A stretch of 64,000 nt of DNA, taken from Pseudomonas flavescens. Its GTDB lineage: Bacteria; Pseudomonadota; Gammaproteobacteria; Pseudomonadales; Pseudomonadaceae. Below are positions 47,077-48,969 of the stretch, one piece after another. The notes beneath the pieces are model-generated. The model made no database searches. It was given only the letters and a program-made list of their open reading frames with translations, and had not been told where the DNA came from. The translations under genes and the position numbers were made by a program. The stretch covers positions 124,001-188,000 of the forward strand of contig NZ_JACBYV010000001.1 of assembly GCF_013408425.1 (NCBI RefSeq), given 5' to 3'. The stretch's first letter is position 1; the number at the start of each line of letters is the position of its first letter.

Positions 47077-47667
47077 TCACTTGCCGACGAGGCCGCTCAG
47101 CAGTAGTGCCTGATAGGCCGCATAGAGCGCCAGCGCCGCGAAGGCGGTGGCGGCCAGCCGACGGATCAGGGTGAGGGGCAGGCGATCAGCGGCGAAGTTG
47201 CCAGCCAGTACCACCGGCACGTTGGCGATCAGCATGCCCAGGGTGGTGCCGATGACCACCATGATGAAGTGTGGGTACTGGGCGGCGAGCATCACGGTGG
47301 CTACCTGGGTCTTGTCGCCCATTTCGGCCAGGAAGAAGGCGATCAGGGTGGTCAGGAATGGGCCGTAGCGTCTCAGGTTGGAGCTTTCGTCATCGTCGAG
47401 CTTGTCCGGAATCAGCGTCCACAGCGCCACGATGATGAACGAGGCGGCGAGTATCCAGCTGAGCAGCGCGGGCGAGAGCAGCCCCGCTACCCAGTTACCG
47501 ACCGCGCCAGCCACCAGGTGGTTGGCCAGCGTGGCAACCACCATGCCCCAGATGATCGGCCACGGCCTGCGGAAGCGCGCGGCCAGCAGCAACGCGAGCA
47601 GCTGCGTCTTATCGCCGATTTCCGCCAGGGCGACGATCAGGGTGGGAACGAAAAGAGATTCCAGCAT
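47077..47667 (-). CDS. TMEM165/GDT1 (UPF0016) family cation exporter, probably Mn2+
   Basis: A 196-residue inner-membrane protein with six predicted helices arranged as two inverted halves. Each half carries the family motif E-x-G-D-K-T (EIGDKT at residues 16-21, EMGDKT at 115-120), which binds Ca/Mn in homologues. Bacterial members export manganese. The long upstream leader contains a manganese riboswitch (47823-47909), strong independent support for an Mn role. No obvious partner gene. Confidence 0.92.
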   Translation of the reverse strand: MLESLFVPTLIVALAEIGDKTQLLALLLAARFRRPWPIIWGMVVATLANHLVAGAVGNWVAGLLSPALLSWILAASFIIVALWTLIPDKLDDDESSNLRRYGPFLTTLIAFFLAEMGDKTQVATVMLAAQYPHFIMVVIGTTLGMLIANVPVVLAGNFAADRLPLTLIRRLAATAFAALALYAAYQALLLSGLVGK

Positions 47668-47680
47668 CAGGTTTCCTAAA

Positions 47681-47816
47681 GGGGCGGGTAGACACGGCTA
47701 TGACACGTACAACCTTCCCGCCCCGGGTAAGGTGTTCGTGTCATAGGTCTTGTCAAACCCTGCGCGGCACTCGTGCTTGCTGTGGCCGAGTTGCGCAGAC
47801 CCGTCTTGGCGGGTCT
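47681..47816 (-). promoter_or_regulatory. Expression platform of the Mn riboswitch
   Basis: On the minus strand the aptamer is followed by AGACCCG-CCAAGA-CGGGTCT (47797-47816). Then comes a long imperfect hairpin closed by CTATGACACG/CGTGTCATAG (47698-47746). Its loop region contains GGGGCGGG (plus 47717-47724), exactly complementary to CCCGCCCC next to the ribosome-binding site (plus 47681-47688, ATG at 47667). The two pairings exclude each other, so this looks like translational control by RBS masking. Confidence 0.6.
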
Positions 47817-47822
47817 TGGGTC

Positions 47823-47909
47823 GCACGCACCATGGTCAACCGACCAAGTATGTTGATGCATGCCGGGCGAGCTGGCGCTCGCGGGAGACTACTCCCCTAG
47901 GACGCGCGC
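47823..47909 (-). promoter_or_regulatory. yybP-ykoY family manganese riboswitch aptamer
   Basis: Minus-strand sequence shows the two conserved loops of this family: GGGGAGTAG (plus 47889-47897) and TCAACATACT (plus 47848-47857). The closing helix P1 is GCGCGCG (47903-47909) with TGCGTGC (47823-47829). These loops form the Mn2+ site in known structures. It lies about 155 bases upstream of a GDT1-type exporter gene, the usual target, and should raise exporter expression when Mn2+ is high. Confidence 0.9.
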
Positions 47910-47970
47910 ATTCTGCCCAAGTGGGGCGCTTTGGGCAAGGCCTGCGCCGTTGTGCCGCAGGCCCGATGCG

Positions 47971-48969
47971 TCAGCGGCTGAGCGCCTGGTAGATGCGGAA
48001 GCCCTCGGCATCGGCCAGGGTGTGGCAGGTGCCGATATGCTGTTCGATCAGGGGCTGGTATTTGAGGAAACGGTTGGCCACCAGGCGAATCTGCCCACCC
48101 TTGCGCAGATGCTTGCCGGCCTGGCGCAACAAGTCCTCGCTGGCCTGATAGTGGGTGTGCACGCCCTGGTGGAAGGGCGGGTTGCTGAGGATCGCGCTCA
48201 ACTCCGAGGGCGCCGCGGCGATGCCATCACCGCTGATGACGTCGGCTTCCAGGCCGTTCGCGGCAAGGGTCAGGCGGCTGCTGGCGACGGCGAACGCATC
48301 GACGTCCAGCAGGGTGACGTGGCTGTGCGGATAGCGACGTTTGAGCACCGCGCCGAGTACGCCGGCGCCACAGCCGAAGTCCAGCAGATGACCGCTCGGC
48401 AGCTCCTCCAGATGGTCGAGCAGCAGGGCGCTGCCGATATCCAGCCGGCCGTGACTGAACACGCCTGGAAGGGTGATCACCTCCAGCGGGCCGTCATCGA
48501 GCGGCAGTGTGTAGCGCTGCGCCAGTGCGCAGAGGTCCGGGGTGGCAGGGGCCTGATCCACGCGCACTTGCCAGAGCTGGCAATGACGTGCGCTGTCGAG
48601 CTTGCGCGGCGTGCCATAAGCGGCCATCTGTTTGGCCGCACGCTCGACACCTGCGCGCTTCTCACCGACCAGATAGAGCACGCCGCCTGGCAGGCGGGCC
48701 GCCAGAGCGTCGAGCAGGTAACCGGTCAGCTCGCGGGACTTGGGCAGAAACAGCACGGCAGAGTCGAAGCTGGCCTGCGGCGGGGCCACGCCAAACGAGC
48801 TGCGTTCGGCGAAGCGCGCTTCGAGTCGGCCGTGGTCGCCGGCGTGCCAACTCCAGCCAAGGGCGTGTGGCAGTTGTCCGAGTAGGTCATCGGCCGGGAG
48901 CCCTGCGAGCAGCATCGGGCCGTTGAACAGCTCGGCCTGACGCAGCAGCACTTCACTTCGCGGATCCAT
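47971..48969 (-). CDS. rsmC: 16S rRNA (guanine(1207)-N2)-methyltransferase
   Basis: Methylates G1207 of 16S rRNA. The 332-residue protein has an N-terminal pseudo-MTase domain and a C-terminal SAM-binding domain. The latter contains [17 protein letters not shown] (motif I) and the catalytic NPPFHQG (motif IV, N-P-P-F). The ATG at 48969 has GGGGGAG upstream; a longer frame adds 20 residues. It could in principle be the related RlmG, but the length and NPPFHQG context favour RsmC. Confidence 0.9.

Follow-up and report, generated by a model that had tools for sequence, protein, structure and literature searches.

A manganese riboswitch upstream of a GDT1-type gene in Pseudomonas flavescens and its candidate pseudoknotted expression platform

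How might a manganese-sensing leader RNA decide whether ribosomes reach the gene that follows it? This question is raised by a 64,000-nucleotide stretch of the Pseudomonas flavescens genome (the window), in which a riboswitch is located upstream of a predicted Mn homeostasis gene coding for a GDT1 protein (PF01169, 143.6 bits). An earlier note on this DNA had described a manganese riboswitch with conserved loops, a GDT1-type exporter gene downstream, and a long hairpin with a segment complementary to a stretch beside the ribosome-binding site (RBS). The features of the leader and its gene are as follows.

47898 to 47903, minus strand: 5' strand of the switch helix P1.1, GUCCUA, which pairs with UAUGAC (47745-47740) in 5 of 6 rows, assigned by analogy with the Xanthomonas oryzae P1.1
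47755 to 47909, minus strand: Mn2+ riboswitch aptamer (RF00080 match, cmscan, 46.6 bits)
47889 to 47897, minus strand: L1 core, GGGGAGUAG (GGGGAGTAG as read), from direct reading and the RF00080 alignment
47847 to 47856, minus strand: L3 core, UCAACAUACU (TCAACATACT as read), from direct reading and the RF00080 alignment
47816-47797 and 47796-47761, minus strand: two hairpins of the variable arm of the aptamer, from minimum free energy (MFE) folds
47746 to 47751, minus strand: AAGACC, the 3' part of L1, outside the window's Rfam match (AGACC anchor)
47737 to 47745, minus strand: switch strand UAUGACACG, at once the 3' strand of P1.1 and the 5' strand of hairpin S1
47698 to 47746, minus strand: S1, the long hairpin that competes with P1.1, of 17 bp and, in the MFE fold, a further 4 pairs at its apex (CCCG/CGGG)
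47717 to 47724, minus strand: 5' strand of helix S2, GGGGCGGG, in the S1 loop, supported by covariation with 47681-47688
47689 to 47697, minus strand: linker L3, CCGUGUCUA, running from S1 to S2 (10 nt if C47746-G47698 is open)
47681 to 47688, minus strand: 3' strand of S2, CCCGCCCC, ending 3 nt before the Shine-Dalgarno sequence
47674 to 47677, minus strand: Shine-Dalgarno sequence AGGA, 6 nt before ATG, from direct reading
47077 to 47667, minus strand: open reading frame for a GDT1-family (UPF0016/TMEM165, MneA-type) membrane transporter of 196 aa (PF01169, 143.6 bits)

The aptamer is as the earlier note described it. The covariance-model search that the note had proposed returned, with cmscan, a match to RF00080 (Mn2+, yybP-ykoY) at minus 47909-47755, scoring 46.6 bits against a gathering score of 45 (E 2.6e-9); there is no further Rfam match in 47600-48000 at E ≤ 1. 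The conserved metal-site sequences of L1 and L3 (GGGGAGUAG, UCAACAUACUUGG, and AAGACC) are all in place, as evidenced by direct reading and the RF00080 alignment. Judged by sequence, the feature is a member of the yybP-ykoY Mn2+ riboswitch family, with a predicted selectivity for Mn2+. Matches to RF00080 occur in 395 of 398 genomes of the same genus, the window's own genome counted, and in 129 of the 398 genomes of a phylum scan. Elsewhere in the window, the sole other match at gathering scores is a t44 RNA (RF00127; 2986-3072, plus strand, 76 bits).

The 3' side of the leader is covered unevenly by the Rfam model. Among 74 loci compared for where the match ends, three of the values being spoiled by contig ends, the match stops 1-10 nt before AGACC in 29, mainly of the Pseudomonas type, and extends at least 50 nt past it in 34. 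In the alignments of four loci (L115, L116, L140, and L153), model positions ~98-169 form a single unpaired loop within a 7-bp helix; these unpaired positions (~70, after P3) cover AGACC, S1, and S2, and the model carries no annotation of P1.1, S1, or S2 there. The window's own alignment instead puts its 3' part on the variable arm (47801-47755), with reduced posterior values. Because the unpaired model positions seem to fall on this arm, the window's low RF00080 score may partly reflect misalignment. The earlier note also mentioned a second small hairpin in the expression platform. If 47816-47797 or 47796-47761 was meant, that hairpin falls outside the platform, because both precede AAGACC and belong to the variable arm of the aptamer.

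The regulated gene starts with ATG at minus 47667-47665. Its GDT1 assignment, which the earlier note had made, is borne out by the PF01169 match; the GDT1/MneA-type protein is probably a Mn exporter, a role predicted from sequence. A comparison with NCBIfam returned no family for it at E ≤ 0.001. The closest named GDT1 loci among the matches listed come from P. daroniae (97%), P. seleniipraecipitans (95%), and P. straminea (93%). Within 47600-48150, we found neither a terminator-like site (hairpin plus U-run; 0 sites) nor a sigma-70-like site. On the upstream side, 61 nt (47910-47970) separate the aptamer match from the stop codon of a methyltransferase gene (MTS domains).

What connects the aptamer to this gene begins at its closing helix. 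In the X. oryzae structure, as described in the accessible part of PMC6754395, the 3' half of L1 and P1.1 consist of GAGACC followed by a switch strand. The equivalent in the window is AAGACC-UAUGAC (47751-47740), and P1.1, the closing helix of the aptamer, is present, with 5 of 6 rows paired. The description in the earlier note needs correction at this point: the 3' strand of the switch helix (47751-47740) lies beyond the Rfam match, 4-15 nt outside it. The switch strand UAUGACACG is also perfectly complementary to CGUGUCAUA (47707-47699), with which it makes the base of S1, and S1 has a base pair probability of 1.00 when the leader of the window is folded free. Because the switch strand is common to both, P1.1 and the base of S1 are mutually exclusive. 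The two exclusive folds of the earlier note, which opposed the long hairpin to the helix beside the RBS, need to be replaced accordingly: the true exclusive pair is P1.1 (47903-47898/47745-47740) versus the S1 base (47745-47737/47707-47699). In L042, L043, and L045 (Azotobacter, Stutzerimonas, and a Pseudomonas metagenome-assembled genome), CAUGACACG serves as the switch strand, and both of its partners are changed to match. Across a diverse set of loci, the covariation of P1.1 is weak (z 2.8, 82/20000).

The second helix, S2, links the hairpin to the ribosome-binding region. The loop of S1, ACCCGGGGCGGG, holds GGGGCGGG (47724-47717), and direct reading confirms what the earlier note had reported, coordinates included: this 8-mer is the exact reverse complement of CCCGCCCC (47688-47681). 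In the window, S2 ends 13 nt before ATG. The strands run in the order S1-5', L1 (ACCC), S2-5', then with no gap S1-3', L3 (CCGUGUCUA), and S2-3', which by sequence is the order of an H-type pseudoknot. Since GGGGCGGG sits in the loop of S1, the two helices can coexist as such a pseudoknot. In an ideal A-form estimate, made with textbook geometry parameters, ~40 Å has to be bridged over the 17-bp S1, which a linker of 9-10 nt can reach, and we infer that the joint formation of S1 and S2 in one molecule would be geometrically allowed. In the MFE fold of the window, S1 is extended at its apex by CCCG/CGGG pairs that take up four S2-5' bases; these pairs would need to open for S2 to form.

These folds bear on the idea that access to the RBS is set by two mutually exclusive structures, the long hairpin and the GGGGCGGG/CCCGCCCC helix. 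In nested folding, where pseudoknots cannot be represented, the free leader has S1 but no S2, and the leader with P1.1 enforced has S2 but not the full S1, as might be expected from exclusive folds, and the apical extension of S1 does claim four bases of S2-5' in the window. Against this, S2-5' lies inside S1 and is followed by S1-3', also in distant relatives. Moreover, simple exclusion between the hairpin and S2 would mean that Mn promotes S2 and turns the gene off, the opposite of what the accessible parts of reports on Mn exporters describe (PMC11647493, PMC9603457, PMC13274385). Because S2-5' sits inside S1 and regulation would run in the wrong direction, we set exclusive folds aside as unlikely. 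Other points of the earlier note fare better: the riboswitch family and the GDT1-type gene are supported, no intrinsic terminator is found, and the platform is worth describing, although its hairpin and S2 need not exclude each other. Folding the leader with and without the aptamer closed, as the note had suggested, did yield S1 in the free state and S2 together with P1.1, but nested folds cannot display the pseudoknot itself.

Is S2 more than a local coincidence? We ran a parser keyed to four elements (the L1 core, CAACA, AGACC, and the S1 helix) on 131 loci. The loci are best-scoring matches rather than a random sample, the GDT1 set being the best 80 of at least 576. The parser, which requires the AGACC anchor, handled 115 of the 131; the 16 others are 13 of the 80 GDT1 loci, which are without the aptamer motif, L064 and L082, where the platform is seen by eye, and E. 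coli alx (L113). Removal of the mis-parsed E. coli mntP (L114) left 114 records, which were reduced to 31 representatives of <72% identity. In a MAFFT alignment of 23 of these representatives, the register of S2 shifts by a column between lineages, and for this reason permutation tests were used in place of a pair count from an alignment.

In the 31 representatives, loops scored with their own tails reached 23.9, compared with 19.5 for swapped tails (sd 0.65; 0/20000 permutations) and 17.6 for dinucleotide-shuffled tails; L003, L080, and L129 were apparently scored in the wrong register in the swap test. With windows fixed independently of S2, in 29 of the 31 representatives (L122 and L128, which have long loops, were left out), the own score was 23.8 versus 19.1 for swaps, again with 0/20000. 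Restricting the swaps in these 29 to the GGCC and non-GGCC groups still gave 0/20000, and each group alone gave 11 and 5/20000. A small signal stays in the reversed-tail control of the same 29, where the score was reached in 658/20000.

A new set of 89 loci was assembled after S2 had been proposed (29 from the phylum scan and 60 further ones). They were taken in score order, the last few being hand-picked, and nearly all come from outside the genus (L157 is inside). The parser handled 77 and failed on 12; 19 of the 77 were removed as >72% alike, which left 58 platforms, none of which was dropped. Here, own tails scored 24.3 and swaps 18.1 (z 12.7, 0/20000), and the own score exceeded the mean swap in 49 of the 58 and the 95th percentile in 22. 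An uninterrupted helix scoring at least 18 is found in 48 of the 58 new platforms, compared with 20.6 expected from swaps, and one of at least 7 bp in 50, compared with 29.6 expected. The 48 helices are 48 different strand pairs (e.g., UUAGAGGGC/GCCCUCUAA, UUCACGGUCGGACG/CGUCCGACCGUGAA, and GGGGGCGGGAUCGAC/GUCGAUCCCGCCCCC), and pairs that contain A and U are among those of S2 (GCCGAGCUU/AAGCUCGGC, UUAGAGGGC/GCCCUCUAA, and UUCACGGUCGGACG/CGUCCGACCGUGAA). As far as these comparisons of sequences go, the strand changes are large-scale compensatory changes, and S2 covaries. In the 50 new loci with an interior of 15-40 nt, the reversed-tail control gave z 2.9 (63/20000), while a region 40-72 nt downstream gave z 0.5.

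That S2 is a chance product of G- and C-rich stretches is, in our view, extremely unlikely. The Pseudomonas strands are indeed runs of G or C, and the reversed-tail controls keep their small signal, but the complementarity recurs in many differing sequences, those with A and U included, and the downstream control is flat at the z 0.5 just given. The permutations also bear on another candidate, in which UCCUA of the P1.1 5' strand (47898-47902) acts as an anti-Shine-Dalgarno sequence when S1 forms. It is complementary to UAGGA (47674-47678) and paired in the window's free MFE fold, but it does not covary across relatives (8920/20000 in the 29 representatives; 7966/20000, z 0.3, in the 50 new loci). 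As a general mechanism it is unsupported, and we regard it as very improbable.

The placement of S2 is conserved along with its pairing. A strict search pattern (switch strand, then hairpin, then CCCGCCC) is matched in 388 of 398 Pseudomonas genomes (the window's own genome counted). Although the letters vary, S2 lies 19-23 nt from AGACC in 24 of the 31 representatives, and L3 measures 8-13 nt in 26; the S1 ends of L003 and L004 were set by hand for these geometry counts. An AGG, GGA, or GAG follows the end of S2 at 0-3 nt in 86 of 115 loci, yet this close spacing is seen in just 12 of the 31 representatives, and 13 of the 31 have no such triplet within 14 nt of S2; in some of these (e.g., L092), the helix itself runs into the triplet. 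These spacing counts place the knot at the ribosome site, yet the step to the Shine-Dalgarno sequence is not always fixed.

By sequence, then, the window has the aptamer, the exclusive P1.1/S1 pair, and a conserved, covarying S2 that adjoins the Shine-Dalgarno sequence. Two marks of RBS occlusion by H-type pseudoknots are present as well, namely, a loop-tail complementarity that covaries and an RBS that borders the 3' helix (3 nt in the window). From these we infer a knot in which S1 and S2 are both formed, which keeps the ribosome out and is released by Mn. We propose, with somewhat more confidence than doubt, that the Mn2+ riboswitch controls translation of the GDT1/MneA-type gene via this pseudoknot. 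Without Mn, UAUGACACG would leave P1.1 and form S1, whose loop GGGGCGGG would pair with CCCGCCCC just upstream of the Shine-Dalgarno sequence, and the H-type pseudoknot of S1 and S2 would keep the 30S subunit off. With Mn, L1 would dock on L3, P1.1 would be stabilized and reclaim the switch strand, and the base of S1 would be opened, weakening the pseudoknot and allowing the ribosome to load.

The direction of control can be compared with that of characterized genes. According to the accessible parts of the reports, the RBS of E. coli mntP is inaccessible without Mn, Mn turns the gene on, and Rho acts on the untranslated leader (PMC11647493); also, translational fusions of mntP increase with Mn (PMC9603457). 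Because mntP shares the layout, these observations support S1 plus S2 as the OFF state. Likewise, in what is accessible of the respective papers, X. oryzae yebN increases with Mn, an effect ascribed to MntR (PMC3136493), and Vibrio parahaemolyticus mneA is induced by Mn through a mechanism left open there (PMC13274385).

The way in which Mn would release S2 is less simple. When P1.1 is enforced in nested folding, S2 still forms in the window (P 1.00). Among 26 of the 31 representatives folded in this way (L080, L122, L124, L128, and L129 were left out), S2 has a P of at least 0.75 in 19, of 0.60 in one, and of 0.00-0.20 in six; rough energy sums for joint S1 and S2 give S2 a similar weight in both states. 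This persistence means that thermodynamics alone fails to explain release by Mn, which may instead have a kinetic basis, follow from lost stacking and linker contacts, or reflect steric effects that the docked aptamer exerts. The same folds could suggest that the pseudoknot aids translation in a standby-like manner, forming when Mn closes P1.1: with P1.1 formed, they favor S2 in 19 of the 26 representatives, and a pseudoknot is essential for standby-mediated translation of tisB, as stated in the accessible part of PMC7708055. We consider this improbable, given that S2 lies 0-3 nt before a Shine-Dalgarno-like triplet in the 86 of 115 loci noted above, though in 12 of 31 representatives, and that in L003 and L004 it spans positions -11 to -22 relative to ATG or, counted from an in-frame GTG, stops 1 nt short of that codon.

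Alternatively, the main output could be Rho-dependent termination in the untranslated leader, with the platform coupling translation to transcription. Such termination is reported for E. coli mntP in the accessible part of PMC11647493, and 47600-48150 contains no intrinsic terminator-like site; nevertheless, Rho-dependent termination would add to ribosome blocking, not replace it, and we think it rather unlikely to be the main output.

The blocking pseudoknot that we favor resembles several known systems in part. Transcriptional yybP-ykoY switches, as covered in the accessible parts of PMC6754395 and PMC11087558, are alike in their aptamer cores and in having a P1.1 whose 3' strand is captured, when Mn is absent, by a hairpin further downstream; that hairpin is described as an intrinsic terminator, whereas the window's hairpin has a loop that pairs next to the Shine-Dalgarno sequence and no terminator-like site is found. 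The E. coli mntP switch (accessible parts of PMC11647493 and PMC9603457) is likewise translational and turned on by Mn, and its leader sequence shows an S1 and a candidate S2 arranged as in the window. It differs in an extra hairpin inside S1, in serving MntP rather than GDT1, and in an S2 that is weak alone, and what is accessible of those two papers describes a masked Shine-Dalgarno sequence and no loop-tail helix. The H-type pseudoknots of preQ1-I and SAM-II have the same S1/L1/S2/L3 order, and their 3' helix either contains the RBS or adjoins it; that of Tte preQ1-I takes in no more than the first RBS nucleotide (PMC10907184, accessible text). In those riboswitches the pseudoknot is the aptamer and is stabilized by the ligand, whereas in the window it would be a platform distinct from the aptamer and would be undone once the aptamer has bound its ligand. 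The L5-L13 kissing loop of cobalamin riboswitches, in the accessible text of the same review, is alike in that a loop-mediated helix controls the RBS; there, two hairpin loops kiss and are stabilized by the ligand, whereas in the window the loop's partner would be a single-stranded tail, and the pairing would belong to the ligand-free state.

Within the accessible literature, we found neither a Mn experiment on the window's leader nor a description of a pseudoknot platform for Mn riboswitches, although the founding mntP papers may draw the platform. The terms yybP, Mn2+, and manganese are absent from the accessible text of the review on RBS-occluding pseudoknots (PMC10907184), and the accessible parts of a P. 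citronellolis tellurite-resistance paper and of a drug-target review do not describe the platform. The aptamer is known; the pseudoknotted platform appears new, and earlier mntP drawings (Dambach 2015, Price 2015) may pre-empt it. A pseudoknot backed by covariation is a concrete, mutable target. It would explain the conserved spacing from aptamer to start codon, and it would let Rfam annotate P1.1, S1, and S2. It also makes testable how a short, weak switch helix opens a very stable GC helix by the ribosome site.

The layout is not confined to GDT1 genes. The window's own genome has a second RF00080 match, of 37.4 bits and below the cut-off, before mntP (L002; G000:C1:1793722-1793876, minus strand), with the L1 core, CAACA, AGACC, S1, and an 8-bp S2, GGUCGGGC/GCCCGACC. 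The layout is also found before mntP in L012 and L126, the latter with G-U pairs, all three mntP genes being confirmed, and by eye the leaders of L013 and L015 equal that of L012. As a tentative generalization, which we hold to have slightly less than an even chance of being right, the translational Mn riboswitches of Pseudomonadota before GDT1, MntP, and Na/Ca-exchanger genes, that of E. coli mntP included, may share one platform: an anti-P1.1 hairpin whose loop knots before the start and is undone by the bound aptamer. If so, a ligand-bound aptamer would undo a tertiary knot, not a simple anti-Shine-Dalgarno stem.

Individual loci give this proposal uneven detail. In E. coli K-12 mntP, S1 (CACAUC..GAUGUG) encloses an extra hairpin, and a candidate S2, GCUGGGG/CCCCGGU, lies 1 nt before AGGA; taken alone, this S2 is not significant, as 152 of 2,000 shuffles reach its score. 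Before MntP-like frames, identified by eye, both strands are changed: CUGGGG/CCCCGG in L193, AGUUGGG/CCCAACU in L182, and GGUUGGG/CCCAACC in L164. The unparsed E. coli alx (L113) offers no clear case of S2. At most, by eye, an alx loop CGGAAG is complementary to CUUCCG downstream, which lies within another hairpin followed by a U run.

Finally, two Pseudomonas loci, L003 (G244) and L004 (G336), have RF00080 matches of 68.4 and 60.6 bits before a Na_Ca_ex (PF01699) gene, which to our knowledge is not a usual member of the Mn riboswitch regulon. Their S2, GACCGGGUAAGC/GCUUGCCCGGUC, is 12 bp long and lies over the ribosome-binding region (-11 to -22 of ATG), and its end is 10 nt upstream of ATG and 1 nt upstream of a GTG in the same frame.
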